Origin: Gammaproteobacteria bacterium
Lineage (GTDB): Bacteria > Pseudomonadota > Gammaproteobacteria > JAABTG01
Assembly (NCBI GenBank): GCA_034522055.1
Contig: JAXHLS010000006.1
Location: 1 to 64,000, forward strand
Direction: 5' to 3'
DNA: 64,000 nt
Part shown: one piece after another, positions 5,453 through 41,801 of the stretch
Position numbering within the stretch: the first letter of the stretch is position 1
Layout of the letters: every line of letters begins with the position of its first letter
Position numbers and translations under genes: made by a program
Notes under the pieces: generated by a model
Database searches by the model: none
Told to the model about the DNA's origin: nothing
Seen by the model: only the letters and a program-made list of their open reading frames with translations

Positions 5453-5461
5453 GAAATTCGT

Positions 5462-7154: not shown

Positions 7155-7236
7155 TGTAGGAGGCCAGCCCCCTGGCCGATTGGGCGATGGGGGGTGCGAT
7201 GGTCGAGGGTTTATCGCCGAGGGGGCTCGGCTCCTA
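7155..7236. repeat. REP-like palindrome, occupied by intron copy 2
   Basis: Runs from TGTAGGAGGCCAGCCCCC to GGGGGCTCGGCTCCTA, with the final C after the intron at 9155. The arms TAGGAG/CTCCTA and AGCCCCC/GGGGGCT are complementary. The ISNCY element inserted at its left edge, so TGTA is shared with the target duplication. An 11-bp stem-like segment (GCCGAG/CTCGGC) directly precedes the intron. Confidence 0.75.
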
Positions 7237-22192: not shown

Positions 22193-22271
22193 GGATGGTC
22201 AGTCCTCTCCGATCCTGTGAGTGAGGTGATTGGCGGTGCGCGGCGTTTGCGGACGCCCGCACCGCGATGGG

Positions 22272-23842
22272 TCAAAGGGATTCGAGGAAGAACAGCAGGG
22301 CCTCCCGGTCCGGACTGCTCATCTCCATGAAGCGATCACGGGAGTCCTCCGCCTCGCCGCCGTGCCAGAGGATGGCCTCCTCCAGGTTCCGGGCCCTGCC
22401 GTCGTGGAGGTAGCGGCTGTGGCCATTGACTGCCGGCACCAGCCCGATCCCCACAGCGGCGTCGTGCGCCACTGCCGGCCGTCGGCCTCGTAGCTCGGAC
22501 GGTCGTCGGCCAGGTCTTCACCCATGTCGTGGAGCAACAGGTCGGTGTAGGGATGGATCACCTGGCCGTTCAGGCGCGCGATGTCATGGCCGGCGGTGGT
22601 GAAGGTCTCGACGTGGCAGCCGTCGCAGCCGGCCTCACGAAACATCCGCTCACCTTGCAGGACCTGCTCCTCGCCGACCCCGCGGCGTCCCGGCACGCCA
22701 AGCAACTGCAGGTAGACGACCAACTGTTCCATCTGGTCCGGCGTGAACTCGGGATTAGCCGGTGTGCCACCATGCAATACGTTCGAGCAGTCGGTTTGGG
22801 CGCGCGTGCAGGATTCCTCGGGGAACATCGGGTTGGTCACGCCCATGTCGTTGACCGCGGCATCCATGGCCTGGTGGGCGACGCTGGCCGCCTCCGCCTT
22901 CCATCCGAAGCGTCCCAGCCGCCTGCTATTACTCTCGGGGTCCCAGACGTATTGTGCCTGCCCGGAGATGCCGTCGCCGTCGCGGTCTTGCGGGTCGGCG
23001 TGGGCCAGGATCGCCGTGTCCGGTATGGCCTCGAGCAGCCCCATACCGGGCACGGCCGGTGCCACTCGCGGCGACATCATGATGTCTTCCCCGAGGGGGC
23101 CGTAGTTCAGATCCACCAGGTCATAAGTCGGCTTGGTCAGGGTATAGCTGGTGCCATCGGAGTACCGGCCCTCGACCTCCTGGTAGCTGATCGCGACGCG
23201 CCCCTCGGGCCTGACCGCGCCTTCGCCGACGTACCGCGCCGGGTTGCCGTAGTCGTCGGCCTTCATGCCCTTGGCCGGCTGGCCGCGGTCGCCGAACTGG
23301 CCGCCGTAGACCGGGTGCGGTTTGGGCCCGCCGTGTTCGCCCGTGCCGGGCACCGACAGCCGGATCAGCAGGCCCTCCTGGGGCGCAAGGGGGTTGTCCA
23401 ACTGCGGCTGGGCGCGGCCGTCGGCCACGTGGCAGGATTCGCAGGCGTCGTGGTTATAAATGGGACCCAGGCCGTCGGCGTCATAGCGGTAGCCGCTCGG
23501 CACCGCGGGGGTGACCAGGCGCTCGAATACGCCGTCGCCGTCGTCGAACAGCTTGGCCCAGCCCCAGGCGAGATTCGGGGCCTCCTGTTCGTAGGCCAGC
23601 CGGCCGAAATGGTAGTGGGTCAGGTCGCCGCCGGACAGGGAGCGCGCATCGACACGTTGCAGGTAGCTCATATCGGCGTCACCGTAGGCCGCCCACGGCG
23701 CGACGAAGGCCTTGTAAGAGGCATAGGCCAGGGCGCCCAGCGCGATGATGAGCGCGGGCATGCTGTACTTCAGTGGGATGGTCAATCGGCGCCGCGGCGC
23801 GGGGGCGTCGATGGGGCTCATGTGGTCGATTGCCGTGTTCAT
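22272..23842 (-). CDS. DUF1111 diheme oxidoreductase-like protein (frameshift near 22449)
   Basis: A membrane-anchored c-type diheme protein of the DUF1111 family, related to MauG and di-heme peroxidases. There is one N-terminal membrane helix (about 26-48), one heme motif CESCH at about 134-138 and another, CDGCH, at about 406-410. As read, the frame fails after TTPLWG. Adding one base to the CCCC run at 22449-22452 gives PLWGIGLVPAVNGHSRYLHD and a natural end at 22272, for about 523 residues. First gene of the DUF1111-imelysin-DUF1513 operon. A role in redox steps of iron uptake is inferred. The frameshift is likely a sequencing error. Confidence 0.87.
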
Positions 23843-25952: not shown

Positions 25953-25970
25953 GTCGGGAGTCCCCGTCTT

Positions 25971-26606
25971 TCAGCGCACGATGAAGAGTTGGCCCAGGGA
26001 GCCGGCCTCGACCACCAGATTGAGCCGGTTTATCTCACGCACCCGGATCACCGCGTTGGAGCCCATTTCGTACAGCCCCACCGTGTCGCCTTCGCGGACG
26101 ATGTAGATGCCGGCATTCTCGATCTCCAGCAGCGCCGCCAGATCCGTGCCGTCATTGACGAGGCCGCGCAGGTGCATGCGGGGAATTGCTATCGCCTGGC
26201 GCGCCGGTTGCAGGGCCAGGTTGGCGGCGCTGCCGCCGCGACGCTCGATGGCGGCGAGGATGAGGGATGTCGGTGCGAAGGGATTGCGCCGCCCCTCCCG
26301 GTACCCGTCGCGGCGGCCCTCCATGGGGCGGGTGCGGAATACGCTGTCGAAGTCCCGGCGTGGCGGTGCCAGGGTTACGCCGGCCGGGGTGTCTTTGGCG
26401 GGATGTTCATCGGGCACAGGCGGGGCGGTGTCGGTGCCCGGATCGCCCAGCTTCTCGCGTACCTGGCTATAGTAGCCGTCGATGGTCTGGAGGCTTTCCA
26501 GCAGCGACTTGTCCTGGAGGAGACCGGTTTGGGCGCCGGCACTGCCCGCCACCAACGCTGCCAATGCCCCGAGCACCACGGGGTTGTTGACGGGGTTTCT
26601 TTTCAT
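25971..26606 (-). CDS. PilP-like periplasmic/inner-membrane protein
   Basis: A 211-residue protein starting MKRNPVNNPVVLGALAALVA, a signal or anchor sequence. The middle is Pro/Asp-rich and probably unstructured. The C-terminal domain (MHLRGLVNDGTDLAALLEIE, then YIVREGDTVGLYEMGSNAVI) resembles the PilP/GspC HR-type beta domain that contacts the secretin. It lies between the PilC/GspF gene and the secretin gene, the expected place for PilP. The frame extends 15 bp upstream, but MKRNP is the better start. Similarity is at fold level only, so the name is by analogy. Confidence 0.75.
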   Translation of the reverse strand: MKRNPVNNPVVLGALAALVAGSAGAQTGLLQDKSLLESLQTIDGYYSQVREKLGDPGTDTAPPVPDEHPAKDTPAGVTLAPPRRDFDSVFRTRPMEGRRDGYREGRRNPFAPTSLILAAIERRGGSAANLALQPARQAIAIPRMHLRGLVNDGTDLAALLEIENAGIYIVREGDTVGLYEMGSNAVIRVREINRLNLVVEAGSLGQLFIVR

Positions 26607-26610
26607 CGGC

Positions 26611-27852
26611 TTACATCCCACCGGTCGATACCTTGAGAGCGGCCTGGAAAAAGGCCAGATAGACCACCGCGACCATGCCGCCGACGATCAGGATCAGGAG
26701 CGGTTCGACCCAGGCGGCCAAGGCCTTGACCCGCGCCTGGAGGTCCTTGCGGTAGAACTCGCCGAGGCTTTCCATGACGGCATCGAGTTCGCCGCTGCGC
26801 TCGCCGATGGCCGCCATGTGGCTGACCAGCTGCGGGATCGGCGGCCGCCGCAGGGCGGCCGACAGGGGCCGCCCGCTGAGGATCTCGTCACCGGCTTGGC
26901 CGAAGGCCTCGCCCAGCGCCCGGTTGCTCGTGACATCACGGGTGATGCGCAGGGAGGCGAGCAGCGAGATGCCGCTGCGCAGCTGCATGGCCATGGTCCA
27001 GGTCGCCTGGGCGAGGCCGGAGGCGAGAATGACCTTGCCGATGACGGGCGTGCGCACCAGTACGGCGTCCATCAGGCGCGCCCCGCGATGCGTCGTCGCG
27101 GCGATGAACACGGCGAGCAGGGCAAGCAATAGTGTGGCGCCCACGGTGCCCCCCCAGGTCTCGAACCAGGTGGCGAGATCGAGCAGGAACCGCGTGATCG
27201 GCGGCAGGTCGACGCCACGACTGCTGAGGAAGCCGGCAAAGCGCGGGATCACCCAGCCCACCAGCGCGATCGATACCCCCAGGGCCATGAAAAAGACGAT
27301 GGCGGGATAAGTCAGCGCCGTGGTGAGCTGGCGCTTGACGTCCTGGCGGCGCTCGAGGTCCTCGGCGAGGCGATCGAGGATGTTGTCGATCTCACCGCTG
27401 CGCTCGCCGGCCTCGAGCAGTTTGCTGACCTGGGGCGGAAACAGACCTTTCTGTGCCGCCATGGATCGTGACAGACTGGCGCCCCCTGGATGTCGTGCGC
27501 TCAGGGCGCCCAGGGCCTGGCGCAGCCGCAGCTTGGACGCCATCTCACGGTTGGCGTCCAGCGCCTGCACCACGGTATGCCCGGAACGCAACATCAACGC
27601 GAGCTGGTGGAACAGGAATACCAGATCCAGCGGGCGTACCGGCAGGTAGCGGCGTAGCGACAGCAATTCCAGCCATCCCCGCCAGCCGCGGCGTCGCCCC
27701 GAGCCGGCGCCACCCCCGCCCGCCGTGACCGAAACGACGTATACGGCCTGGTTGCGCAGCGCCGTCGCGGCTTCCCGTGGGCTGGCGGCCTCGAGCTCGC
27801 CGCTCTGCTCCTGGCCACGCTGGTCCAGGGCGACATAGGAGTAGAGTGCCAT
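26611..27852 (-). CDS. inner-membrane platform protein, PilC/GspF family
   Basis: A 413-residue platform protein of the T2SSF family, with two repeated domains. The first carries FLFHQLALMLRSGHTVVQAL, and the second repeats the pattern around TWTMAMQLRSGISLLASL. Membrane segments are visible at about 182-205, 235-257 and 385-405. The typical KLLEAGERSGEIDNILDRLA and AIGERSGELDAVMESLGEFY motifs are both present. The protein anchors the cytoplasmic ATPase to the inner membrane and supports pilin assembly. It begins 1 bp after the ATPase gene ends. Confidence 0.95.
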   Translation of the reverse strand: MALYSYVALDQRGQEQSGELEAASPREAATALRNQAVYVVSVTAGGGGAGSGRRRGWRGWLELLSLRRYLPVRPLDLVFLFHQLALMLRSGHTVVQALDANREMASKLRLRQALGALSARHPGGASLSRSMAAQKGLFPPQVSKLLEAGERSGEIDNILDRLAEDLERRQDVKRQLTTALTYPAIVFFMALGVSIALVGWVIPRFAGFLSSRGVDLPPITRFLLDLATWFETWGGTVGATLLLALLAVFIAATTHRGARLMDAVLVRTPVIGKVILASGLAQATWTMAMQLRSGISLLASLRITRDVTSNRALGEAFGQAGDEILSGRPLSAALRRPPIPQLVSHMAAIGERSGELDAVMESLGEFYRKDLQARVKALAAWVEPLLILIVGGMVAVVYLAFFQAALKVSTGGM

Positions 27853-27853
27853 C

Positions 27854-29484
27854 TCAGCCGCCCGCCGCGATGATCAGGTGTTGTACTTCGGCGCGGCTGG
27901 TCAGACCCGCGCCGATCTTCTCGCGGCCGTCCTGGAGCAAGGTGTGATAGCGCTCCCCGGCCGCGCGGCGCAGCTCGTCCTCGCGCGCCCCGGCGGCGAC
28001 CATCTCGCCCAGCGCGGGGTCGATCCACAGCGACTCGTAGAGGCCGACCCGGCCGAGGTAGCCGGTGCCCAGGCACAGGGGGCAGCCCTTCGGCCGGTAG
28101 GGGGCGACACCCAGGTCCGGCGCACCACGGACCGGCGGCGTATCCATCTCCGGCGGCACGGGCTCGCGGCAGTGCGGGCACAGCCTGCGCACCAGCCGTT
28201 GGGCCATCACACCGATCAGCGTCGAACCGATGAGGTAGGGCGGTACGCCGATGTCCGCGAGACGGGTGATGGCGCTGACCGCATCGTTGGTGTGCAGGGT
28301 CGACAGCACCAGATGGCCGGTCATTGCGGCCTTGAGGGCCGTTTCGGCCGTATCCAGATCGCGGATCTCACCCACCAGGATCACGTCGGGGTCGTGACGC
28401 AGGAACGAGCGCAAGGCCTGGGCGAAGCCGACCTTGGTGCTCACCTGGACCTGGGAGATCCCTTCGATCACCTGTTCGATGGGGTCCTCGACGGTCAGGA
28501 CGTTGAGTTCGTCGGTGTCGAGTTCGCGCAACGCGGCATACAGCGTCGTCGACTTGCCGCTGCCGGTGGGGCCGGTGACCAGGATGATCCCGTGGGGGCG
28601 GTCGAGTGCGGCCTGGAAGGGCGCGAGGATGAACTCCGGCATGCCCAGTTGGCTCAGGTTGAAGCCACCGGTGCCCTGGCCGAGCAGGCGCAGCGTGACG
28701 CGCTCACCCCAACGGGTCGGCACGGTGGCGATGCGGATGTCGTTCGGTGGCACCTCCCACTGCTGGATCTGGTAGGTCATGCCGCCGTCCTGGGGCAGGC
28801 GCTGTTCGGCGATGTCCAGGTTGGCCAGCACCTTGATGCGGGTGACCACGGCGTCGCCCTCGGCCTCGCCGAGGGGCCGTTTGAACTCCTGCATGTGGCC
28901 GTCGACCCGCAGGCGGATGCGGTAGCCGAGTTTCTCGGGCTCGAAGTGCACGTCGGTGGCGCGGCGCAGGTGGGCGTCCTTCATGATGTCGTCGAGCAGT
29001 CCGGTCGCATCGGCCTCGCCGACCACGTTTTCCACCTCGCTCCCGGGGGAGTGGGCGCGCGTCCAGCGCCGGACCGCGGCGCGCAGTGCCTCCGGCGCGG
29101 CCAGGCCGAGTTCGAACCGCAGACCGGTCGCGCGCTGCGCCATCTCGAGACTCGTCTGGTCGTCGGGGTCGTCGAGGGCGAGGCACAGGGAGCCGTCGGG
29201 CGCCGCACCGGCAACATCGCGCGCCGCAGCAGCACGTTCCTGGGCAGTTTCTCCATGGCGTCGGGGTCCGGGCGCAGGTCCTTCGGCAGCAGGAAGGTGA
29301 TGCCGCGCAGATCGGCCAGTGCCTGGTAGAGTGCGGCCTCGGGGAAGCGGCCGGCGCGCATCACCGCCTCGATCAGGCGAATACGTTCGCGGCGCGCCAG
29401 CAGTTTGAGCCCTGCGATGCTCTCGGCTTCAACCAGCCCGGCCTGCACGCCCGCATTGATCAGCGTCGCCTCGGTCACCGCCAT
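27854..29484 (-). CDS. assembly ATPase, PilB/GspE family (frameshift near 29200)
   Basis: A type II/IV secretion ATPase powering pilus or pseudopilus assembly. The N-terminal domain starts MAVTEATLINAGVQ and runs to MLPVR in one frame. The rest (MAQRATGLRFELG onward) lies in the next frame. One added base near 29200 restores about 543 residues and a continuous domain. The catalytic core is intact: Walker A GPTGSGKSTT, DPDVILVGEIRD, the His-box STLHTNDA and a tetracysteine zinc site (CPHC, CPLC). It overlaps the stop of the pilT-like gene. As written the gene is broken, but the intact remainder and the pattern of other indels here suggest a sequencing error. Confidence 0.92.
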
Positions 29485-30578
29485 CAGGTGTTCCTCCGGC
29501 CGTTGCGATTCAGCAGCCCCGCCATCGCGGTTGCATCGTGGCAGTGCGCCAGCGCCTCTTCGCTGCTCAGCAGGCGGTCGCGGACCAGGCTCGAGAGGGA
29601 CTGGTCGAAGGTCTGCATACCCTCGCCGCTGCCGGTCTCCATCACCGAGAAGATCTGCCGGGTCTTGCTGCTGGCGATGAGGTTGGCGACCGCCGGATTG
29701 ACCATCAGGATCTCGATGGCCGGCACCCGCCCGCGATCGTCGCCGACCGGTATCAGCTGCTGCGCAATCACCGCGCGCAGGGCCATGCCGATGCGGTGAC
29801 GGGCGACCTCCTGTTCGTCACCGGGGAAGCTGCCCACCAGGCGCTCTATACAGCCGATGGCCTCGCCGGTATGCAGCGTCGAGAACACCAGGTGCCCGGT
29901 TTCCGCCGCCGTCAGGGCGGCGCGCATGGTCTCGATGTCCCGCATCTCGCCCACCAGGATGACGTCCGGGTCTTCCCGCAGCGCGGCGCGCACGGCCTCG
30001 GCGAAGCTCGGCACGTCGGCGTACAGTTCGCGGTGGTGGACCAATGCCCGCTTGGGGGGATGGACGAACTCCACCGGGTCCTCGATGGTGAGGATATGGC
30101 AGGCGCGGCTGCGGTTGATCTGGTCGATCAGCGCGGCGAGCGTGGTCGATTTGCCGCTGCCGGTGGTGCCGGTCACCAGCACCAGGCCGGCGCGCAGGCT
30201 GGCCAGGGCGCCGAGCGCCGGCGGCAGGCGCAGTTCCTGCAGCGACAGCATGCGCTGGTCGAGGTGCCGTGCCGCGAGGGCGGGGCGACCGAGTTCGCAA
30301 TAGGCATTGATGCGAAAGCGTTCGCCATCCGGCGTGCCGTAACCGATGTCGACGGTGCGCCGCTCGGCGAACTCCTGCCATTGCGACGGGCTGCAGATAT
30401 GCTGCAGCATGCCGTGGATGCTGTCCGGCGCGAGTGCGACGTCGTCCAGGCGTCGCAGCTCGCCGTGGATCCGCAGGCAGGGCGGGGCGCCGCAACTCAG
30501 ATGCAGATCGGAGGCACCCTGTTCCACGAGTCGGCGCAGCAATTGGTCGAGGTGTTCGGCGGCTTGCATCGCGTTCAC
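29484..30578 (-). CDS. pilT: retraction ATPase, PilT family
   Basis: A 364-residue PilT-type hexameric ATPase. It opens with a PilT N-terminal domain (GASDLHLSCGAPPCLRIHGE) and has Walker A TGTTGSGKSTT, Asp-box ILTIEDPVEF, the PilT hallmark GEMRDIETMRAALTAAETGH and His-box STLHT. PilT proteins drive pilus retraction. Its presence argues for a dynamic type IV pilus-like machine rather than a plain type II secretion system, which normally lacks it. It is embedded between the PilO and PilB/GspE genes with 4-bp and 1-bp overlaps, so it is part of the same transcription unit. Confidence 0.93.
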   Translation of the reverse strand: MNAMQAAEHLDQLLRRLVEQGASDLHLSCGAPPCLRIHGELRRLDDVALAPDSIHGMLQHICSPSQWQEFAERRTVDIGYGTPDGERFRINAYCELGRPALAARHLDQRMLSLQELRLPPALGALASLRAGLVLVTGTTGSGKSTTLAALIDQINRSRACHILTIEDPVEFVHPPKRALVHHRELYADVPSFAEAVRAALREDPDVILVGEMRDIETMRAALTAAETGHLVFSTLHTGEAIGCIERLVGSFPGDEQEVARHRIGMALRAVIAQQLIPVGDDRGRVPAIEILMVNPAVANLIASSKTRQIFSVMETGSGEGMQTFDQSLSSLVRDRLLSSEEALAHCHDATAMAGLLNRNGRRNT

Positions 30579-31246
30579 AGGGTCAGGGTCAGGGTGACGT
30601 CCAGGGTGCTGCGCAGGGCGGGCGTGGTCTGCCCGTCCGTGTCGGCAGAGCCGGGCGGTGGGGTCTCCGCGGGCACGATCTGCAGCCCGATGGGCGCGCT
30701 GAGGCGGTCGAGGCGTTTCAGGCCCTCGAGGAAGTCCAGCAGTTCCCAGTAGCCGCCGTGGACCCGCAGAGTCACGATCGGCCGCTTCGAGAGGTGATCG
30801 CGCCGCTTTGCCGGCTGCTGGCCCGAACCGGCGGTGCTGTTGTCGGCGGCGCTGCCCTGGCTGTGGACGGTGAGGCCGGCACGCTGAGCCAGGGCCGAGA
30901 TGTCGAGCAGCAGGGCCTGCTCGCTGGCGTCGCCTGCGGCCGCGAAGCGCGCCTCCAGTGCCGCCAATTCGGCCTTCAGGGTCTCGCGGCTCTGCTCCAG
31001 TGACTTCAAGCGGGTCGTCAGGCCGGCGGTGTCGGTGTCCAATTCGGGTATCTCCGACGCCCTCAGCTCGATGCGGTTCTGCTTGCGCTTGACCATGTTC
31101 TCGGCATGCTCCATCTCCTTGAAGGTCTGGGGATACAGCAACATTCCGTAGAGTCCCGCCGGCAGCATGGTGAGGACGATGATCCAGGTGATGCGCTCGC
31201 GGAAGGACAGGGACCTCCAGCGCTGCATGAAGGCCGTGCCTGTCAT
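30575..31246 (-). CDS. PilO/GspM-like inner-membrane protein
   Basis: A 223-residue protein with one N-terminal membrane helix (about 18-38, ITWIIVLTMLPAGLYGMLLY). A coiled-coil stretch follows (ELRASEIPELD through AALEARF), then a small C-terminal ferredoxin-like domain (RPIVTLRVHGGYWELLDFLE), the layout of PilO. The start ATG overlaps the stop of the PilN-like gene (ATGA) and its end overlaps pilT by 4 bp. It would form the PilN-PilO alignment complex bridging the platform and PilP/secretin. Assigned from layout and order more than from sequence identity. Confidence 0.82.
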   Translation of the reverse strand: MTGTAFMQRWRSLSFRERITWIIVLTMLPAGLYGMLLYPQTFKEMEHAENMVKRKQNRIELRASEIPELDTDTAGLTTRLKSLEQSRETLKAELAALEARFAAAGDASEQALLLDISALAQRAGLTVHSQGSAADNSTAGSGQQPAKRRDHLSKRPIVTLRVHGGYWELLDFLEGLKRLDRLSAPIGLQIVPAETPPPGSADTDGQTTPALRSTLDVTLTLTL

Positions 31247-31950
31247 GTCTCGTCTCCCCCTTGCTGCCGTGCCTGTTGCAGCCACACCTCGATCTCGTAA
31301 CCGCGACCGTTGAAGCGGTTGGTGCCGGTGCTGATGCGGTGGTCCTGTACGCGCAAACCCCAGGGCTGGAGATGTCGCCCCAGATTGTTGATGAACAGCT
31401 GCCCGGCGGTATTGGTCAGGGCCCAGGCCGAGACGTAGTACAGGGTGTCGTCCTTGCGGTCATGGACAAAGCGGTCGAGCATCACCTCGTCGGTGACCGC
31501 ATCCCGCATCGCCTCGAGCATGCCGGGCGCCGATTGCCGGCGTTGCAGCAGCCGGTCGAGGGCGTGCTTGCGCCGCTGCAGGGTGTCGACCTCGGCGTCC
31601 AGGGTGTCGACCTCTGCGGCGATCCGCCTGCTCTCGGAGGTGACGGCCTGCGCGGTGTTGGCCAGGCGTACCCGCTCCTCGAACTCGGCGTCCAGCTCCA
31701 CCAGCCGTTGTGCGCTCAGGTGCGTCTGGATCCGCATCGACACCTCGAGCCCCGCCAGCCCGAGCACCACCACCACGGCGAAGGCATAAGGCAACAGGTC
31801 GGTGCGCCTCCACAGGGGCGGCGGTGGCGGCTGTGCCTGCAGCGGCGCCGCGCCCTGGGATTCGGCACGCCCCATGGCGTGCCGGCTGGCGGTCAGGATG
31901 CCGCCCCGGTGGTGCGGGGCGATGCCGCCCGTGACGGGTTGTTTCTTCAT
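31243..31950 (-). CDS. PilN/GspL-C-like inner-membrane protein
   Basis: A 235-residue bitopic protein. A cytoplasmic Pro-rich head (about 1-48) is followed by one membrane helix (about 54-71, YAFAVVVVLGLAGLEVSM) and a coiled coil of about 80-135 (VDTLDAEVDTLQRRKHALD). The C-terminal beta-rich domain includes DTLYYVSAWALTN. This is the PilN plan, except that the cytoplasmic head is longer than the usual short PilM-binding peptide. It overlaps the PilM gene upstream and the PilO gene downstream by 4 bp each. Confidence 0.8.
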   Translation of the reverse strand: MKKQPVTGGIAPHHRGGILTASRHAMGRAESQGAAPLQAQPPPPPLWRRTDLLPYAFAVVVVLGLAGLEVSMRIQTHLSAQRLVELDAEFEERVRLANTAQAVTSESRRIAAEVDTLDAEVDTLQRRKHALDRLLQRRQSAPGMLEAMRDAVTDEVMLDRFVHDRKDDTLYYVSAWALTNTAGQLFINNLGRHLQPWGLRVQDHRISTGTNRFNGRGYEIEVWLQQARQQGGDET

Positions 31951-33014
31951 GCGGCCTTGTCCTGGGGGCCATGGGCCTCGACCGGATTCACCACGGATCT
32001 ATCGAGGCGTTCCGCCAGCAGCGGCGCGAGGGTCTCGAAGGTGGCCGGGGGGGCGTTGAGGAGGACGCGGCCGATATCCGGGCGCAGCTCTTCCTGGCAC
32101 AGGCCGGCGATCTGCTCGGGCGCGGGCGCGCCGTCATGGGTGTTTTCCACCCGGTAGGCGCGCAGGGCCCCGGGCAGGCCGCGCAATACGGCCACTTGCT
32201 CCTGGTGGACATCGATATACAGCTCTTCGCGGTTCTCGGTGTGCTCCAGGGTCCCGAAACCACAGCCGAGGGCGGGGTAAATGGCGGTGAGATACAGCTT
32301 GTTGCGCTGGCAGGCCTTGACCCACTGCCGGCGCAGGCCGTCGCCGATGCCGCTGGCCAGCCACGGGTAGCGCGGGGCCTCGTCGTCGATCTCGAAATCC
32401 TCGGGCATACGCTGCGCCGCCCAGCCGCAGAAGACCTCGTCGTCGAGCTGGACCAGCTTTTCCTGCAGCGCCAGGCCCTCGTCGATGTGGGCGCGTTTGA
32501 CATGCCCCAGGTTCTGCGCGACCTCGCCGAAGCGAACGGTCAGGCGGTTGTTCGAGGCCGCGTTGCGCGCCAGGGCCTCGCGCATCACCTCGGCGCGTTG
32601 CTGCTGCGTCAGGTAGCCACGGCCCATCAGCAGCGAGCCGATGCACCAGCGCTCGTGGTGCTGGGCGAACAGGGGCTCGAGTTCCCAGCGCACCAGTTCG
32701 CGCATCTGCTCGGGCGGACGCGGCCGCTCCGGGTTGACCGGCAGGTCGAGCAAGGCCGACAGCGCCGAGCCACTGACCAGGATGGCCTTGCGCGGCGGCT
32801 TCTTCACCCCGGCCGAGCGGATCCGTTCCAGCACCTCGCCCACCGCGGTCACCCAGTCGAGGGCGCGGGACGCGCCGCTGGCCTGGACCTCCTGGTCCAT
32901 CAGGCCGGCATGCACGACCGCGCCTTCAAGGGTGTAGCCGTCGTGGTGCAGCACCAGCAGGTTGTTCGGTTTGCCGAGCTGGATGTTGTTGAGGATGGTG
33001 ATGGGGTTTTTCAT
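31947..33014 (-). CDS. PilM-like actin-fold assembly protein
   Basis: A 355-residue cytoplasmic protein placed exactly where PilM lies in pilM-N-O-P operons. Segments such as LLVLHHDGYTLEGAVVHAG, RKAILVSGSALSALLDLPVN and ELYIDVHQEQVAVLRGLPGA resemble the alternating strands of the PilM/GspL/MshI actin-like fold. It is more divergent than canonical PilM. It probably recruits the PilN-PilO complex at the inner membrane. Overlaps the PilN gene by 4 bp and starts 7 bp after the prepilin gene stop. Confidence 0.72.
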   Translation of the reverse strand: MKNPITILNNIQLGKPNNLLVLHHDGYTLEGAVVHAGLMDQEVQASGASRALDWVTAVGEVLERIRSAGVKKPPRKAILVSGSALSALLDLPVNPERPRPPEQMRELVRWELEPLFAQHHERWCIGSLLMGRGYLTQQQRAEVMREALARNAASNNRLTVRFGEVAQNLGHVKRAHIDEGLALQEKLVQLDDEVFCGWAAQRMPEDFEIDDEAPRYPWLASGIGDGLRRQWVKACQRNKLYLTAIYPALGCGFGTLEHTENREELYIDVHQEQVAVLRGLPGALRAYRVENTHDGAPAPEQIAGLCQEELRPDIGRVLLNAPPATFETLAPLLAERLDRSVVNPVEAHGPQDKAA

Positions 33015-33020
33015 CTGCGT

Positions 33021-34229
33021 TCAGTGGTCCAAAACGATCTCGACGTTGGGCAGGCTCGTCCCCGCGAAGAGCTGGACCCGCCTGGTGATGCGGCCGCTGT
33101 CGGGCGGGCATGGGCCGATGCTGGTGGCCGGGAATCCCGTCCCCGCCAAGGTGCAGCGGTAGGAGGCCTGAGTACCACCAGTCGTGTGTTTGGTGGTTGC
33201 ATCGTTGTCTACGATGAGAAGCAACGGGTGTTCGCCCTGCGGCACGTTCGTATCGAGGGTCGCGTAATCCGGTGCCGTACCCCCTTCATAGTGATTTTCG
33301 GTGAACACCGCCATAGCCGAGTCCCCGTCGGCAATGGGCGTTGCGAGGCACTCAGAGGTCAAGCGGCGCCAGCGACCATTGGTGCCGTCGGTGATCTGGT
33401 TGCGGTAGACCAATAAGGCGAGTCTCAGGCACTCGGTGCCTGCATACGCGATGGGTGTCCCCGTGCGGTTGGTCACAACGACCGGCCAGTCGCGCGTCAG
33501 TACGCGCCAGTCCGTGCTGTCGATGACGATTTTAAGATCGTCGTCATAGGGCGGCTCCGTGCTGTCCGGTGCCCCGTCGCGGCCGAGACTGGCGATTTCC
33601 AGGTCGATGCCTGCGGGGCCGCCTCCCGGGTTCGTCACTTGCCATCCATGATCGGGCGCCGCGCCGGTATTGCCCCAGCCGTCGCTAAAGGTGAGTGCTA
33701 CACCCGTTACACCCGGTGACAGGGGAAGGTAGGGACCGCGCCAACCCTTTTGCAACGTCTCTCCGGGTTCATCGAGTGGGCCTTCGCCGGTGCCATCGTT
33801 GTAACCGGCGGCATCAGGGACCGGGTCAAAGATCGGTTCCAAAGCGCGGTAGCGGTCCATGCATGCAGCCGTTGCCAAGCCATCGCCGCATTCGTCGTAG
33901 GTATCGGTGTTGTCGATCCGGGTGGCTTCCGCGATCAATGTCTCGACTGATTGCCCCGGGGGAGCCGCGTCATTGGGAATAAGGCCATTGTCTGCCGCAT
34001 AACCAGAGAGAAGTCGTTGGCCGTTGAACACAGGGTCCGAGTGCCCCACGATGCCCCTGAGCAATGCAGTAAGGCGTGTCCTGGTGTCCTCGTAGCGCAC
34101 CTGGCCGGTGTTGTCGGTCACCTGCGACAGGGTCATGAAGGCCACCGCCGAGAGAATGGTCACCACCAGCAGCAGTTCCAGCAGGGTCATGCCGGCGCAA
34201 CGGTGCGGCAGGCTCGGGGGCGTGTTCAT
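33021..34229 (-). CDS. large prepilin-like protein, 402 residues
   Basis: Class III-type leader ending Cys-Ala-Gly, then a mature start MTLLELLLVVTILSAVAF with the conserved Glu at position 5, the hallmark for cleavage by a PilD-type peptidase. The mature part is unusually long (nearly 390 residues), Asp/Gly/Thr-rich and has several cysteines (ECGDGLATAAC, TECLRLAL, TSECLAT). It could be a minor pilin or a tip adhesin; no adhesin domain is recognised. It overlaps the upstream hypothetical gene by 4 bp. Met replaces the usual Phe at +1. Confidence 0.87.
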   Translation of the reverse strand: MNTPPSLPHRCAGMTLLELLLVVTILSAVAFMTLSQVTDNTGQVRYEDTRTRLTALLRGIVGHSDPVFNGQRLLSGYAADNGLIPNDAAPPGQSVETLIAEATRIDNTDTYDECGDGLATAACMDRYRALEPIFDPVPDAAGYNDGTGEGPLDEPGETLQKGWRGPYLPLSPGVTGVALTFSDGWGNTGAAPDHGWQVTNPGGGPAGIDLEIASLGRDGAPDSTEPPYDDDLKIVIDSTDWRVLTRDWPVVVTNRTGTPIAYAGTECLRLALLVYRNQITDGTNGRWRRLTSECLATPIADGDSAMAVFTENHYEGGTAPDYATLDTNVPQGEHPLLLIVDNDATTKHTTGGTQASYRCTLAGTGFPATSIGPCPPDSGRITRRVQLFAGTSLPNVEIVLDH

Positions 34230-34834
34230 CGGGTGGTCCCGCCGGGGGTGGTCCCGCCGGATTGGTCCGCGCCCGGGGGGCGAGGGCCAACGTCGGTGGA
34301 GTACCCGGTCACGAGGATCGCCGGTCCCTTGGAGTAGTTGTACATGTGGTAGCCGTGGAAGGCGACGCGCCGGCCTTCCTCCCCCAGCCCGTCCCTGATC
34401 GCCGCGGCCGTCCGCTCCTCGACGTAGACGGGCATGATGTGGCCGCCGGGGGTGGTCACGAACATGCGGTGGTTGACCTCGGGCCTGGGATCCATCGGGA
34501 AGAATGCCAGCACCCGATACAGGTACTCGGCCTTGCGCGGGTGCGGATGTTGCTTGACCCTGGCGACGAAGCGGATGGGTGCCGGCGGCAGCAGGGAGGT
34601 GGTGCCTTCTTTGATCGGACGCTCCGCGGCCACGAAGCGGTCGATGTCGACGTGCTTAAAGGCAGCGGCATCGGGCGTGGGCTCGGCAGTGGCATCGGGC
34701 ACGACAGCGGCTTGGGGTGTCGGCCTGGAGGTCGCGGCGTCGTAGGCGAGCACGGCCCCGGCGACGAAGACCACCGTGAGGCTGGCGAAGAAGACGCCGC
34801 GGGTCACGCGGCCAGCGAATAGGGGTGTGAACAT
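34226..34834 (-). CDS. hypothetical membrane-anchored protein of the pilus cluster
   Basis: 202 residues with one N-terminal hydrophobic helix (GVFFASLTVVFVAGAVLAY, about 13-31), then an Ala/Pro/Thr-rich linker. A periplasmic domain follows with PIRFVARVKQHPHPRKAEYL and MFVTTPGGHIMPVYVEERTA. The C terminus repeats Gly-Gly-Thr-Thr from a small DNA repeat. No family is recognised. It lies 4 bp after the disrupted prepilin gene and overlaps the next prepilin gene by 4 bp, so it is almost certainly co-translated with them and part of the apparatus. Confidence 0.7.
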   Translation of the reverse strand: MFTPLFAGRVTRGVFFASLTVVFVAGAVLAYDAATSRPTPQAAVVPDATAEPTPDAAAFKHVDIDRFVAAERPIKEGTTSLLPPAPIRFVARVKQHPHPRKAEYLYRVLAFFPMDPRPEVNHRMFVTTPGGHIMPVYVEERTAAAIRDGLGEEGRRVAFHGYHMYNYSKGPAILVTGYSTDVGPRPPGADQSGGTTPGGTTR

Positions 34835-35648
34835 CGCATTACTCCAGGTTCAGGATCACGTCGTCGCCGCCGCCGCCGGGCTCGTACGTCCCGTTGCGTC
34901 CCATGCTGACGATCGACGGGCTGTCGTCGAGACCGAACACCAGACCGAACACCAGGAAGGGTCGGCCCCAGTACTCGCGTTCGCTGCCCCCCGGGTCCGC
35001 ACGCCAATCCAGCAGGGTGTTGCCACCCACGTTGACGGCCCGTCCTTCGAAGGGATCGGCGAGCCCCGGAACATCGGGGATGTTGTCACCGGCCAGAGGG
35101 TCGCCCGAGGGGTCGCCGGCCGCGGTACCATCGTTGATGTCATCACGGATATCGACGAACCCATCCTCGAAACCCCTCAGGTAAGGTCCGCGCCAGCCGC
35201 GACCGCTGTTCGCATCCCAGGTCTCCAGCCGGTGTTCGGTCCCATAGAGCGGATTGACCCAGAGCTGCTCCAGGTTGGCTGGCGAGTAGAACCAGCGTTG
35301 CCTTTCGGCGTTGTTGGTGCCCGCGTAGGATGGGAGACTGTCGATTGGCACGGCGCCCGGGGGCGTGGCCGTATCCAGATCGAACGGCCCCTGCTTCGGG
35401 TAGTAACCGGTGTCCTGGCGAAACTGGTCCATCGCCTTGGCGAGTTCCATCATCTCGGCACGCACCAGCTTGGCCTGGGCGTCCTCGTTGACGCCGGTCA
35501 TGGTGCCGGTGGCGACGAAGGCCACCGTGGCCAGGATGGCCACCACCGCCAGCAGTTCCAGCAGGCTGTAGCCGCGCCGGGCGTGCGGCGCGCCGGGGCA
35601 CGGGGGGTGAGTCCTCCCGGTGGATGGAGCGAAGGTGTTTATGTGTTG

Positions 35649-37057
35649 GCCTCGTCAGAAAAATTCGTGGGCGGTTTCCGGGACAGGTAATGCTCCAAGC
35701 GCATGATATAAAGCGATTTCTGCCGCATGATAAGTCCTGAAGCCATATGCTTTTCTGGTGGTCAGTTTCGCTTTGTTATTGAAACCTTCGACAATGCCGC
35801 TCGAAAACTGCTTTTTTGCCCGGAACCAGTTCAGCAGCAGGGGCCGATGGTTTCTCAGCATGCGGGCCACCTTCTTCATCGGCTCAATCTTGGAACGCAT
35901 CGTTTTCGTACACCACTTATCCAGGAACTCACCGGCCCAATAGGGCGACTGATACGACCAGAAGAGCTGAAACTCCTCTTTGAGCAGATAGCTTCTGACC
36001 GACTTCAAATTGTACTGCAGCAGATCCGCCAGTTTGGTCTCCTGTTTCTCCGTCAGATTCTCCGGACGCTTGAGCAGCAGCCAGCGGGTCTTCGTCAGTA
36101 CCGGATCGTAGCCTCTTTTCTTCAGCTCCTTGGCCTCCCCGGCCCGCACCTCATCGATCGCTTTACTCAAGTGCGCCATGATGTGGAACCGGTCCAGGAT
36201 GTGGAGTGCACCTCCCGCCTTCTTGGCGATCACCCTCAGGTAGGGCTTCCACATATCGCTGCAGATATAGCGCAAATCGGCGGTTCGTTCCTTGCCAAGC
36301 CACCGGAAGAATCCCAACAAAGTTTTGACCTTCCGTTTCTTGCCGATCCACAGCAACCGTTTACAGCCAACGTCGATCTGGTAAACCAGCGTGAGGTACT
36401 TGTGGCCCCTCTGCCATTGGATCTCATCGATACCAATAGCTTTAATGCCCGACAGGTCTCTATGTTCCCGGCCCCAGGTGACAGCCATCTCGACCGAGCA
36501 GAACACATGGTCCCAACTGGTGCGAAAGGCTTCAGCGACTTCCTTCCAGCTCAGGCGTTTGGCCCAGCTCGCCAGAAACCAGGCATAGGCCTCGGTCAGG
36601 CGATGTTTGCCTTCGGCCCAAGGCATCCGCTCCACCACGATGCCACAGCTTGGACAGTCGACGCGGCGTGGCGCATAGAGAAAAAACACCTTAATACCCC
36701 ACACCGGAATAAACTCAAATCTTCGAACCGGCAATGTGTCGTAACCCGGCCTGCGCCGGCCGCACCTCGAGCACTCCGGCCGCCCATTACCGCGAGGGTG
36801 GAGTTCGGCCTCGATTGTCGGCACCTCCGTGCCATCTACCCAACGGATGGCGCCGTACACAAAAGATTTGAATTTCTGGACTCGATTAAGGATAGTCTTG
36901 ACTTGCATCCTCGCTCCTTTTTTCTGATTGACGGTTGGTCGTACTTCCATCATCTCAGAGTTAGGGAGCAGGATGCGCTTCCCCTAATAAAATCTAAATT
37001 TGCATCCCTGGAGTGCTAGTTATCTACGTTTTTACCCACAAATTTTCCTGAAGAGCC
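35649..37057 (-). mobile_element. ISL3-family insertion sequence, copy 2
   Basis: A 1409-bp copy of the element at 4044-5452, in opposite orientation. The ends are GCCTCGTCAG on the left and CTGAAGAGCC on the right. It is flanked by the 8-bp direct repeat ATGTGTTG (35641-35648 and 37058-37065). It interrupts a prepilin leader. Equal length and the apparently identical transposase show that the two copies separated recently. Confidence 0.95.
35655..36908 (-). CDS. ISL3-family transposase, copy 2
   Basis: A 417-residue DDE transposase whose translation looks identical to the one at 4193-5446. The zinc-ribbon cysteines, IGIDEIQW, CSDMWKPY and the distal GIVEGFNNKAK segment are all intact. The start at 36908 follows the same GGAGCGAGG site. 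It reads in the same direction as the pilus genes, so transcription from the element could run into them. Its TGA stop is only 9 bp from the disrupted prepilin body and in frame with it. Confidence 0.95.
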   Translation of the reverse strand: MQVKTILNRVQKFKSFVYGAIRWVDGTEVPTIEAELHPRGNGRPECSRCGRRRPGYDTLPVRRFEFIPVWGIKVFFLYAPRRVDCPSCGIVVERMPWAEGKHRLTEAYAWFLASWAKRLSWKEVAEAFRTSWDHVFCSVEMAVTWGREHRDLSGIKAIGIDEIQWQRGHKYLTLVYQIDVGCKRLLWIGKKRKVKTLLGFFRWLGKERTADLRYICSDMWKPYLRVIAKKAGGALHILDRFHIMAHLSKAIDEVRAGEAKELKKRGYDPVLTKTRWLLLKRPENLTEKQETKLADLLQYNLKSVRSYLLKEEFQLFWSYQSPYWAGEFLDKWCTKTMRSKIEPMKKVARMLRNHRPLLLNWFRAKKQFSSGIVEGFNNKAKLTTRKAYGFRTYHAAEIALYHALGALPVPETAHEFF

Positions 37058-37068
37058 ATGTGTTGCAT

Positions 37069-37366
37069 GGTCTGGCTTCCCGTTACCTGGGCGGCGCGGG
37101 ACGCGTGGGGAGGGTGGGACAGGCCGGCCCGGCGCGTCGCGCAGGCGTGCTGTTCGCCTGCGATACCCGTCATGGCGTGCCCATCGTGCGTACCCCGGGA
37201 CTGTCGGCCCGGCGGTACGTGGTTGTGGCCGGCGGTCTGTCGCGCCGGCGCCTGGCATGTACCGTCCCCGTGACGTCTCTTGCCTTGGTTTATCGCCTTT
37301 GTCGAAGGCTCCGATCAGGCCACTGGCGCGGCACGGCCGCCGGTGGACTGATCGCAGGCATCGAAA
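37069..37366. other. GC-rich intergenic region upstream of split prepilin
   Basis: About 300 bp between the original start codon of the split prepilin gene and the terminator of the large pilin gene. No convincing gene or repeat was found on either strand. It may contain the native promoter of the downstream pilus operon (minus strand), but no clear -35/-10 or -24/-12 pair could be chosen. Confidence 0.4.
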
Positions 37367-37368
37367 GG

Positions 37369-37394
37369 GGGCCGGCCGGCGAACCGGCCGGCCC
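37369..37394 (-). terminator. strong intrinsic terminator after the large pilin gene
   Basis: Perfect 11-bp stem GGGCCGGCCGG / CCGGCCGGCCC with a four-base loop, followed on the minus strand by CCCTTTCGA. It lies 77 bp downstream of the pilin stop and would limit read-through into the rest of the pilus cluster. This makes the pilin gene a separate, probably strongly expressed unit. Confidence 0.75.
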
Positions 37395-37470
37395 GTTGGG
37401 AATGGAAAAGCTCACGCTTCGGCCACGTCCCTGTGGCCGGCCCCGCGACGGGGCCTACGCCGTCAGTCCC

Positions 37471-38502
37471 TTAGATGGTGTTGCGGGTGCCGTCCCACTC
37501 ACCCAGTTCCTCTTCCTTGGTGTCACCGGCGCCGTCGATGATGGTCACCAGGGCCACCTGATCCGCCGCCTCGATTCCGCCACCATTGAAGTTGCCGACA
37601 TCGTAGATGGCGATGAAACGGTTGTACTCGGTCGCCGAGACATGGCGATAGACCGGCACCGAGGTCATGCCGCCGAGGTCGTTGGCATTGAACAGGGTCG
37701 ATGCCGGGCCGAGACCCACGGCCAGGTAGGCCTTGCCGGTGGCAGCGGCCAGGTTGGTACCGTCAAACTCCACCGCGCCCGTCGGCTGGCCTACCAGACG
37801 CTCCTGGCCACCGGTCCAGAACATGGCGAGGGGTGCATCGTTACCGTCCAGGGTGTACGCAAAACCACAACCGTTGCCCAAAGGCGTCAAAAAGATGTTG
37901 CCGGCCACGACGGCGTTACCCCGCGAAGCGATGGTGTCTGCCAGGTTGGCGTCCGTGCACGCATCGCCGGAAGCAGTGACGAAGCCGTGAATGGCATCAT
38001 TACCCTGATCCGCACCGATGTACTGCAACTGGGTAATGCCGATGTCCTGCAGGATACCCGTGGTCGCCGGTGTGGCAGTAGAGTCGCCCGCCAAGTCGGT
38101 GTTGAGGGCCACCGGTGACACATCCTCGATCGCGAGTATGCTCGCCGGTACAGCGGCCGCTACACCGGCAGCGTCCGATGTTGCGGCCACCAGCAGTGAG
38201 TCATAGTTGTTTGGCAGCGTGTTTCTGTTCAACACCCGGTAGGTCCGGATACCCTTGTTCAGCTCGTCCATCATCGCCACATGGGCCGCCGCCGAGGCGC
38301 GGGCGTCGGTGTCCTGCAGGGCGATGGTGGCGGTGCCGGCGATGGCGGCCAGGATGGCGACCACCACCAGCAGTTCGAGCAGCGTGAAACCACCCTGTTT
38401 GCGCGCTCTCTGCAGCCTGCCGACGCGGCCGGCGAGTTGGCTGTCGGGGATCGACGCGGGGTCGATGCGATCGAAGTGCTTTAAAACGGTTTTCATGTTC
38501 AT
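37471..38502 (-). CDS. large prepilin, probable major subunit
   Basis: 343 residues. A long leader of about 38 residues ends in KQGG, then a mature start FTLLELLVVVAILAAIAGTA with Phe+1 and Glu+5, the classic prepilin peptidase site. The mature region is rich in Ala/Thr/Gly/Asp, with a pair of cysteines (GDACTDANL, GNGCGFAY) that may form a disulfide. The ATG at 38502 follows AGAGGAACCACGA. Separate from the rest of the cluster (own terminator at 37369) and directly upstream of it in transcription order, as expected for an abundant pilin. The mature size of about 305 residues is large for a major pilin. Confidence 0.88.
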   Translation of the reverse strand: MNMKTVLKHFDRIDPASIPDSQLAGRVGRLQRARKQGGFTLLELLVVVAILAAIAGTATIALQDTDARASAAAHVAMMDELNKGIRTYRVLNRNTLPNNYDSLLVAATSDAAGVAAAVPASILAIEDVSPVALNTDLAGDSTATPATTGILQDIGITQLQYIGADQGNDAIHGFVTASGDACTDANLADTIASRGNAVVAGNIFLTPLGNGCGFAYTLDGNDAPLAMFWTGGQERLVGQPTGAVEFDGTNLAAATGKAYLAVGLGPASTLFNANDLGGMTSVPVYRHVSATEYNRFIAIYDVGNFNGGGIEAADQVALVTIIDGAGDTKEEELGEWDGTRNTI

Positions 38503-38754
38503 TCGTGGTTCCTCTTGCAGATGTCTGTTTGGCCTGCACCTCCCCGCCCGGGGGGGCCGTGTGCCGGGTTTCGTGTCGGTTTGCTTGATTCGGCACCTGC
38601 GCGTCACGCGCATCGCACCATTTTCTGACACGGCCCCGCGCCGTCGTCTGAAAGAGTTGGCATCCCTGCCGAGGAGTCGCGATTGTCGGCCGTGGCAATC
38701 GGTGGTGCCCGGTGCGCAAGCAACCAGGACTTGGTCCGGTCGGGCCTGCTCCCG

Positions 38755-38967
38755 TCAGCCCGACTGTTCGGCAACCCCATTGCCGGGTTCGAAGTCCACC
38801 ACGTAGCGGTACTGCTTGCCGCAGTGGATGATCACCTCCTTCTGGCCGCGGCGCAGGATACGCATCTCCACGCGCAGGTCGGCGTAGCCATCATGGGCGA
38901 ACATCTCGTGGTACAGCCACTGCAACCGTTCGAGGATCTCGCTGTTAGTGGCGGTGGCCTTGGACAT
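38755..38967 (-). CDS. small hypothetical protein, paralogue of 19614
   Basis: About 70 residues (78 if the upstream ATG at 38991 is used). It carries HDGYADLRVEMRILRRGQKE and CGKQYRYVVDF, which align with the small protein at 19614-20017. The shared pattern is an amphipathic helix, then H-(D/E)-G-Y-(A/G)-D, then beta strands ending G-K-(Q/E)-Y-R. No family is recognised. The Met at 38967 follows GGAAGA at short spacing, while the upstream Met has a weaker site. It lies between the GspG-like gene and the large pilin gene, in the same orientation. Confidence 0.6.
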   Translation of the reverse strand: MSKATATNSEILERLQWLYHEMFAHDGYADLRVEMRILRRGQKEVIIHCGKQYRYVVDFEPGNGVAEQSG

Positions 38968-38991
38968 CACATCTTCCATCCATTGTTCCAA

Positions 38992-39215
38992 ATCTTTGCG
39001 AGCCGTGGGGGATGCTTTTTTCCTAAACGTGGGCGTATTCTAAACAAAAAAATCGTAACGCAAATGATTTACATTAAGTTTACTAAAACCAGGCCGCTAT
39101 AGTGCGCCGGTCGATGAGGTGGCGGTCAGTTCCCGCTGCGTAACTGCGCCGGATTGGCCGGCGCATCGACCAACCGGCGCTCGTACAGACCCCGTTGCGT
39201 GGGCTCGGGCCGGGT
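38992..39215. promoter_or_regulatory. AT-rich gap, probable promoter region
   Basis: About 220 bp with an unusually AT-rich core (39035-39100) in a GC-rich context, which suits a promoter for the small ORF and possibly the pilin gene on the minus strand. No exact promoter boxes are claimed. Confidence 0.4.
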
Positions 39216-39635
39216 TCAAGGCATGGGCCGGCGAAAGAGGTCCCACTCCACCACGTCATCCCCGCCGATCCGGCCATCGGGGCCCAGGGAGTAGAGATCG
39301 TAGCCGCGGCCGCTCCGGGTGCCCGGCAATTCGTAACGATACTGCCGGCCCCAGGGGTCTTCGGGCAGGGTTTCGAAATAGCCTTCCTCGACCAGGGACA
39401 TCAGGCTACCCGGCATGGGCCGCCCCAGGTCCAGGGCATAGGCCCCCAGGGCGCTCTTGAGCAGCAGGATGCCTTCCCGGGCTTGGCGCAAGTCCCTTTG
39501 TCCCGGGGTCTCCACCGCCATCAGGAACCGGGCCGACACCGCCGCCAGGACCAGCAGCAGGACCAGGATCACCGCCCATTCGACGAAGCCGAAGCGGGTA
39601 CGGCCCGGGGTCTTGTTCCTTGTCTGTCCTGACAT
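39216..39635 (-). CDS. GspG-like pseudopilin with atypical start
   Basis: 139 residues. One N-terminal hydrophobic helix (FVEWAVILVLLLVLAAVSARF) is preceded by RFG. The C-terminal half is a strong match to type II secretion major pseudopilins (GYFETLPEDPWGRQYRYELPG, YDLYSLGPDG, then GDDVVEWD). In a normal pseudopilin Glu is at +5 after Gly; here the only candidate is Glu at +3 after Gly-Phe, so processing may be altered. It starts 1 bp after the multiheme cytochrome gene, so the two are co-transcribed. This is the key link between the cytochromes and the pilus-like machine. Confidence 0.83.
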   Translation of the reverse strand: MSGQTRNKTPGRTRFGFVEWAVILVLLLVLAAVSARFLMAVETPGQRDLRQAREGILLLKSALGAYALDLGRPMPGSLMSLVEEGYFETLPEDPWGRQYRYELPGTRSGRGYDLYSLGPDGRIGGDDVVEWDLFRRPMP

Positions 39636-39636
39636 C

Positions 39637-41247
39637 TCAGCGCCCTCCAGCCAAGGCCATGGACTCGGAGCCCGCTTCCACTTCCATGGTGGTTTCAGCC
39701 ATGAGCACCGGGGGGATCACCACCTGCCCGACGTCGAAGTTCAAGGCCGGGATCTGGTACTCCTCGATGTTCTGGAGGATGTCCTGCAGGGCCAGGCGAT
39801 ACCACAGTCTGGCCTTTACGCGCAGGGGCCCCTGGACCCCGGCGGGCAGCGGGATCCGGTAGCCCACCCGGTCGCTCTCGGCGGGACGAATCGGGGGGCG
39901 GGCGTATGCCATGCGGTCCACGTCGAAGAGGACATGGCGCGTATTGGCACTGCCATCGCCATTGGTCATGCGCTTGATGTAGAGAACGGCATCGGGGTCG
40001 ATCTCCCCGGTCTTGCCATCGAACCAGCCGTTGTCATAGAGGACACGCCCCTGGGCATCCTCGAGGCTGAGCTGAAGCCACATGTGGCGTTGGTCCAGGG
40101 GGCCGGTCGGTAGGTTGTGTCCGGCGCCGCTGTTGGTCACCACCAGGTCCAGCTCCAGCGCGGCGCCTGATGCCCGCCTGGTCTCGATGGCGAGGTCCGC
40201 CGCTTCCTCGAGGAGCCCGAGAATCAGTTCATGCTGGCGTTGCAGATCGGCCAGCCATTCCTCGCCGCTCAGGAAGACGTTCCTGCCGGGTACCCAGCCG
40301 CCGCGCAGTTCCACCACCTTGCGGCCAAGCAGATCCGCGGCGGTCAAGAGGTAGTTGTTGCCGACGAAACGGTGGGAAACGGGGCGCTCGGGTTTCTCGC
40401 CGCGCTTGAGCGCCGCGATGTAAGCGGCCGGATCCGGGTGCATGTGGCAGTCCTGGCACTCGATGCCCTGGGCCGCGTACGGACTCAGGCGCCATTCGTC
40501 GAAGGTCTCCTGCATGTGCAGGGGGAAGTCGCCGTGGACCGGGCTGGGGCGGATCTCGGTGTGGCAGGCCCCGCACATCTCCGACCGGCCCATCAGGGGG
40601 TTGTGGGTCTTGGCCTGCATGGCCTTGGCGTGCTCCTGGGGTGCCGCCATGACGAGGGCAGGATCCAGGTAGCGGTGGATCTCGTTGATGGCCAGGGTCA
40701 AGGCGCCATTGCCGGCCAGGGGCTCTGTCGCCCGCACCACATGACAGGCGATGCAGGTCGCCCCCTCCTCGAGGGCCGGGTTCGGCCCCACCACCGGCAG
40801 GGGGGTGGTCGCCCCGGCCATTACCGCCAGGGGCTCGTGACAACTCTCGCACCAACGCGCCTTTTCCGTGGCCAGTTCGCCGCCCTCCCTGCTGCCGAAT
40901 TCGTTGACCGCGACCGAGGTCTCATAGATGACGTCTAAACCGCTCACCGCATGGATGGACGATGCCCATTCCTTGAATTCCTTGAGATGGCATTCCGCAC
41001 AGAACGTGGCAGACGGCAGGCCGCGCCAGTCCACCAGCCGGTTGCCCTCGGTTTTTAATTCGGCCGGATAGAAGGGATTGTCCTGGATCCAGGGCATGGA
41101 GTAGTGGGGCAGGTCCGTACCCGGTTCGAGGCCCGTGTTCTTCTGCCAGGGCAACAGGGCGCTGAGGGCCGCGAAGGCCGCGAGGGAAACGGCACACACC
41201 TGGAGAATCCGCAGCAGGGGGCGCGTCAGGGTGATATTGACGTTCAT
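39637..41247 (-). CDS. pentaheme c-type cytochrome
   Basis: 536 residues. One N-terminal membrane helix (about 12-33). Five CxxCH heme motifs: CAECH (83-87), CESCH (133-137), CIACH (165-169), CGACH (225-229) and CQDCH (264-268). Many extra His residues may act as distal ligands. The C-terminal half lacks hemes and is beta-rich. This fits a cytochrome c-554/NapC-related multiheme electron carrier anchored at the membrane and facing the periplasm. The ATG overlaps the stop of the cytochrome b-like gene by 4 bp. The frame extends upstream, but the ATG at 41247 gives a proper anchor. The redox partner is unknown. Confidence 0.88.
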   Translation of the reverse strand: MNVNITLTRPLLRILQVCAVSLAAFAALSALLPWQKNTGLEPGTDLPHYSMPWIQDNPFYPAELKTEGNRLVDWRGLPSATFCAECHLKEFKEWASSIHAVSGLDVIYETSVAVNEFGSREGGELATEKARWCESCHEPLAVMAGATTPLPVVGPNPALEEGATCIACHVVRATEPLAGNGALTLAINEIHRYLDPALVMAAPQEHAKAMQAKTHNPLMGRSEMCGACHTEIRPSPVHGDFPLHMQETFDEWRLSPYAAQGIECQDCHMHPDPAAYIAALKRGEKPERPVSHRFVGNNYLLTAADLLGRKVVELRGGWVPGRNVFLSGEEWLADLQRQHELILGLLEEAADLAIETRRASGAALELDLVVTNSGAGHNLPTGPLDQRHMWLQLSLEDAQGRVLYDNGWFDGKTGEIDPDAVLYIKRMTNGDGSANTRHVLFDVDRMAYARPPIRPAESDRVGYRIPLPAGVQGPLRVKARLWYRLALQDILQNIEEYQIPALNFDVGQVVIPPVLMAETTMEVEAGSESMALAGGR

Positions 41248-41801
41248 CGGGCATCTTCCCCCTTGCCGGCAATCCACAGCAGATGGGTGAAAAGCAACGG
41301 TAACAGCAAGACGCTGCTCCAGAGATGCAGCCAGACCAGGGATTGGACCAGGTAATAGCCCTGCATCCAGACCAACCCCAGGTAGAAAAGAAGCCCGGGC
41401 ACGGCGATCAACAGGCCGCTGCCGAATACCAGTAGCAGGCACCAGGTCAGCAGATGTCCGAGACAACGCTGCCGGTACCTTTGAGCGCTCTCATCGGCTT
41501 GCGGGCGCAGGCGCCACGGGGTCAGCAGCAGGGACAAGGGCTGATCCTTGTGGCGCTGGTGCAGCACGTAGAAGGCGGGCAGCAGGATGGTGGCCATGAG
41601 GCCGGCGGCCAGGTGTAGCAGCAGTACCGTCTGCGAGGCGTTCCAATTGAGGTCCCTGGGTATCAGCCCGTACCAGAAGCCGCTGGTCAGGGCGACACCG
41701 AAGGCGATGGCGAAGCCGCCGAAGAGGGAGATCAGATTGTGGACGCCGAGGCGCTCGTGGTCCATCTCGGTCTGGGCGACGGTCAACTTGAAGTATTTCA
41801 T
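41244..41801 (-). CDS. cytochrome b-like membrane protein
   Basis: 185 residues with about four membrane helices (ISLFGGFAIAFGVALTSGFW, VLLLHLAAGLMATILLPAFY, LLTWCLLLVFGSGLLIAVPG, LVWLHLWSSVLLLPLLFTH). His residues lie within helices at positions suited to bind b-type heme (LLHLAAG and LHQRH; LHLW and FTHLLW). It probably receives electrons from or gives electrons to the pentaheme cytochrome encoded next, as a quinol-linked membrane module. The start at 41801 is chosen for its position before the first soluble segment; upstream frame is repeat-derived. Confidence 0.75.
   Translation of the reverse strand: MKYFKLTVAQTEMDHERLGVHNLISLFGGFAIAFGVALTSGFWYGLIPRDLNWNASQTVLLLHLAAGLMATILLPAFYVLHQRHKDQPLSLLLTPWRLRPQADESAQRYRQRCLGHLLTWCLLLVFGSGLLIAVPGLLFYLGLVWMQGYYLVQSLVWLHLWSSVLLLPLLFTHLLWIAGKGEDAR

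Follow-up and report, generated by a model that had tools for sequence, protein, structure and literature searches.

A probable recent ISL3-family insertion inactivating a prepilin-like gene, with a possible polar effect on a conserved type IV filament operon

What becomes of a filament subunit, and of the operon that follows it, when an insertion sequence sits in the leader of the subunit gene with its transposase reading in the same frame? We addressed this question in a 64,000-nucleotide window (bases 1–64000 of a 1.3-Mb contig) from a genome of 5.14 Mb that is assembled in seven contigs and is 98% complete. Our reading, to which we give a probability of about 0.86, is that a recent ISL3 insertion has inactivated a prepilin-like gene, with a polar effect on a conserved type IV filament operon being possible. 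The features on which this reading turns are as follows.

35649–37057, minus strand: ISL3-family insertion sequence (1,409 bp; terminal inverted repeats, 8-bp target-site duplication, Pfam DDE_Tnp_ISL3)
35641–35648 and 37058–37065, no strand: the two copies of the target-site duplication, both ATGTGTTG
35655–36908, minus strand: ISL3 transposase (417 aa from the likely start; TGA at 35655–35657)
37066–37068, minus strand: native start codon of the split prepilin gene (leader matches that of relative locus L064)
34839–35648, minus strand: remainder of the prepilin-like gene (leader from within codon 4, cleavage site, body, stop)

The first-pass annotation had read the exact insertion site from the 8-bp duplication, and this holds: the repeat is perfect, encloses the element precisely, and would arise by chance at one site with a probability of ~1.5e-5. 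The element termini (GCCTCGTCAGAAAAATT and GGCTCTTCAGGAAAATT) form an imperfect terminal inverted repeat (TIR) in which 14 of 17 end bases match, and the open reading frame (ORF) at 35655–36953 (minus strand) matches Pfam DDE_Tnp_ISL3 (PF01610) at 9.7e-74, far above the cut-off. While this ORF is readable from 36953, the transposase probably starts at 36908, preceded by AAAGGAGCGAGG. A DDE transposase, an imperfect TIR and an 8-bp duplication—the length given for classical ISL3 elements in the available portion of a published account (PMC7643977)—together place the element in the ISL3 family.

Six full-length copies of the element occur in this genome, with partial copies present too, and such repetition is what might favor an assembly join error at the element, a possibility raised in the first-pass annotation as a potential refutation. 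We consider this the least probable of the explanations weighed here, because five of the six full-length copies are each bounded by an 8-bp duplication of their own and three, including the pilin-gene copy, are identical across all 1,409 bp; further, the flanks unite into a gene with matches in relatives on either side of the join, and the contig is large. The join looks real. As for the other copies, two share a missing base in a T run (A on the coding strand) upstream of the likely transposase start, one of them with one additional mismatch, and the sixth has 98.7% identity and no 8-bp repeat. A second identical copy lies within the window itself (4044–5455), just ahead of another ORF's in-frame ATG. 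Since three copies are identical over their whole length, the element has probably been mobile recently; gene conversion could yield the same identity. A plasmid search with the element returned seven records at 60–80% identity, none spanning 80% of the element.

Removal of the element had been predicted to rejoin the ATG at 37066–37068 to a prepilin leader and body, and the joined sequence indeed reads through as MQHINTFAPSTGRTHPPCPGAPHARRG / YSLLELLAVVAIL. The restored gene encodes a 27-residue leader, a cleavage site (G^YSLLELL, with the Gly codon at 35571–35573), a hydrophobic helix and a 243-residue mature protein. It matches Pfam N_methyl (PF07963; 8.8e-5) and TIGR02532 (6.9e-5), both above cut-off, and its G^xxxxE motif, hydrophobic helix and linkage to assembly genes are those of a prepilin or pseudopilin, though the GspG equivalog (TIGR01710) is not reached (34.1 bits vs. 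a cut-off of 88.85). Structure prediction from eight sequences gave a mean pLDDT of 44.5, too poor for a fold search. The placement of the insertion in the fourth codon depends on the native start, and here the closest named relative is informative: in L064, a Chromatiales metagenome-assembled genome (MAG) whose pilin shares 54% identity in alignment A6, the leader MKRVTTF can start with GTG at the matching place (L064:7381), opposite MQHINTF here, which supports both the native ATG and the hit in codon 4.

Intact relatives are plentiful. Scanning with the neighboring PilM-like protein gathered 11 loci, all in named genomes: MAGs of Chromatiales and other Gammaproteobacteria, together with Methylotenera, Methylomonas, and Moritella. 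The ISL3 transposase is absent from every one of them (0/11). Ten of the 11 have a similar pilin upstream of the third one; in the eleventh (L072) the contig ends there and the sole pilin match overlaps the third pilin. Among the homologs, the C-terminal part of the pilin is conserved, and the gene order is the same in a genome of the same class (G056). Within the genome itself, a second, intact allele was sought as another possible refutation, and a search up to E = 10 returned none: its two further matches are the neighboring pilins.

As the sequence stands, the native start is lost, as had been proposed: the ATG now runs for 14 codons to a stop and gives only MQHMALQENLWVKT. Could the body of the gene find another start? 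The suggestion that re-initiation yields a trimmed pilin is not supported, given that the stretch from the transposase TGA to the cleavage site is free of in-frame ATG, GTG, and TTG codons. The in-frame options before that site are ATA or CTG only, so re-initiation cannot remake a prepilin unless one of these is used. The first in-frame GTG sits within the hydrophobic core, and the GTG that follows GGGAGG is out of frame (ORF 35143–35601). With a native start that dead-ends and a body that has no usable start, we infer that the pilin product is lost. Specifically, a recently active ISL3-family element would have transposed into codon 4 of the prepilin-like gene, leaving a dead 14-residue peptide in place of the subunit.

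This loss would be reversible if the element could leave cleanly, as exact excision between the perfect duplications on both sides would restore the pilin gene, and the locus might then act as a switch that is on in part of the population. We judge this very unlikely: precise excision is rare for most insertion sequences, and the single assembly offers no evidence of excision.

It was also claimed that the transposase reads in the same direction and frame as the split prepilin, and this is correct. Its TGA falls 6 nt short of the element end and is in frame with the pilin remainder; the frame after it (CGA GGC CAA CAC ATA AAC ...) stays open for 271 codons, up to the end of the pilin. The join is, nonetheless, best explained by chance. 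Its odds are about 1 in 6 per genic insertion, or 1 in 3 given the orientation, and because the spacing from TGA to end is the element's own property, the open frame is simply that 1-in-6 outcome. The same spacing recurs in a copy from another species (G237, locus L079), as judged by that copy's own TIR and duplication. Three of the five genome copies with duplications (L001, L002, and L003) have the TGA in frame and co-directional with the next ORF, with 271, 124, and 161 open codons after it, while the other two have 4 and 10, and the copy without a duplication 24. In other species, five usable copies show 2, 34, 8, 34, and 13 open codons and no such join; a sixth, whose transposase frame breaks early, was left out. 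We rejected a bias of the element toward in-frame joins, these being small numbers (3/5 own copies vs. 0/5 usable copies elsewhere). An open frame through the stop of this element's transposase thus comes free and should not be taken as evidence of fusion.

Even so, the frame bears on whether read-through of the UGA could make a transposase–pilin fusion, from which prepilin peptidase, cutting after the Gly, would release small amounts of a normal mature pilin. The frame is open from the TGA to the pilin stop, the cleavage motif is intact, UGA is a leaky stop in E. coli when C comes next, and pilins insert with their N-terminus in the cytoplasm. The product, however, would have about 450 residues preceding the cleavage site, a leader for which we know of no precedent; the spacing shared with another species' copy argues against selection for the pilin gene; and the ATPase of the operon is probably broken (see below). 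We therefore hold read-through to be a slim prospect, and slimmer still its extension, in which the mobile element would serve the pilin as both leader and expression switch by way of a fusion trimmed by prepilin peptidase. A search of the open-licence literature gave no paper that combined all five terms for an insertion-sequence read-through fusion.

Beyond the subunit, inactivation by insertion would be felt in the genes that follow. Those flanking the split gene, in the order of their reading, are these.

37471–38631, minus strand: upstream prepilin-like gene (N_methyl 1e-7; 55% identity to L064)
37249–37399, minus strand: conserved structured stretch between the upstream and split pilin genes (L064 counterpart at 7046–7190, plus strand)
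34226–34834, minus strand: gene for a 202-aa protein with no Pfam match, 4 nt past the pilin stop (a neighbor kept in some relatives)
33021–34229, minus strand: third prepilin-like gene (N_methyl 1.3e-4)
30575–33014, minus strand: PilM-, PilN-, and PilO-like genes (PilO weak, 0.0048; order and conservation in relatives)
29484–30578, minus strand: PilT-family ATPase (TIGR01420, 1.4e-123)
27854–29484, minus strand: GspE/PilB-type ATPase (frame shifts near 29.2 kb)
23988–27852, minus strand: GspF-like platform protein, small conserved protein, secretin

The names PilM and PilN are assigned from gene position. With type IVa pili, MSHA pili, and type II secretion this cluster has in common a GspE/PilB-type ATPase, PilT, GspF/PilC, a secretin, and several N_methyl prepilins, but it is assigned here to no single named system. 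Among NCBIfam equivalogs, PilT lies above its cut-off and the pilin, GspE-, GspF-, and secretin-like proteins lie below theirs, the GspE query being the C-terminal part only. In both genomes the structured stretch combines a hairpin resembling a terminator with a long stem and another hairpin. Two of its pairs are compensatory, the fold z-scores are -3.2 and -4.8, and it is possibly a leader or small RNA. Strong matches to it occur only in this genome and L064; no Rfam family reaches its gathering score there, and the weak Rfam matches (best E 0.037) look like chance. The cluster lies between a gene for a multiheme cytochrome c (39637–41466, minus strand) and a stretch coding for a di-haem oxidoreductase, imelysin, and DUF1513 (20014–23842, minus strand), neighbors that hint at a connection with metal or electron handling.

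Under insertional inactivation, the downstream assembly genes would be partly cut off from native upstream transcription and coupling, and would be expressed, if at all, partly from transcripts that start in the element. We infer such polarity, and a rival view would have the element's outward transcription drive the genes from that of the 202-aa protein (p34226) to the secretin, so that the operon is rewired rather than only broken. The co-directional transposase, ending so close to the element end, would suit this, as would the absence of terminator-like sites on the minus strand of 34800–39700. Against it, transposase promoters are usually weak and a simple scan gave no promoter-like site inside the element (weak evidence). 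Operon proteins were also lost in a published case involving pilM (PMC7643977, available portion). On balance, we think rewiring unlikely.

That published case is the nearest parallel to the insertional inactivation that we favor. According to the available portion of the report, CLJ-ISL3 of Pseudomonas aeruginosa CLJ1/CLJ3 inserted in the 5′ part of pilM, and proteomics detected none of the operon's proteins (PMC7643977). The two cases share the ISL3 family, 8-bp direct repeats and further copies in the genome, and in both a gene of a type IV pilus operon is hit close to its 5′ end (PMC7643977). They differ in that CLJ-ISL3 has a length of 2,985 bp (vs. 1,409 bp here) and carries two extra genes, that the gene hit is pilM rather than a pilin, and that operon loss was shown there by proteomics and is a prediction from sequence here; the in-frame join seen here is not described for CLJ-ISL3 in the portion of the account available (PMC7643977). 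ISL3 disruption of type IV pilus genes is thus already published, and the present case is a new instance.

The operon carries what is probably a second lesion, a point absent from the first-pass annotation. The N- and C-terminal parts of the GspE/PilB-type ATPase are in one frame in every relative locus where the gene is present (10/10), and translation over the join runs without a stop in six of the ten. In this one genome the frame change may be a sequencing or assembly error; if real, the filament machine would already be off. Unless it is such an error, these data suggest that the whole filament system is off. Other filament systems probably remain, given 14 N_methyl sites in the genome (three of them within the cluster) and four full-length GspE/PilB-type matches elsewhere in it.

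The cluster has an uneven distribution. Genus and family mates (G001–G004) gave no match to the pilin or the PilM-like protein, and hence no empty site, and an initial scan of genome contigs with the pilin query gave no match. A smaller locus in G050 was rejected as a counterpart since it did not resemble the cluster. Presence in the more distant loci (L064–L074) with no match in genus and family mates suggests transfer or repeated loss.

The affected filament cluster is common to records from Chromatiales, Methylotenera, Methylomonas, and Moritella, and the locus described here is a clean example of insertion sequences switching off surface appendages. If the second operon lesion is true, the filament system would be decaying in this lineage.
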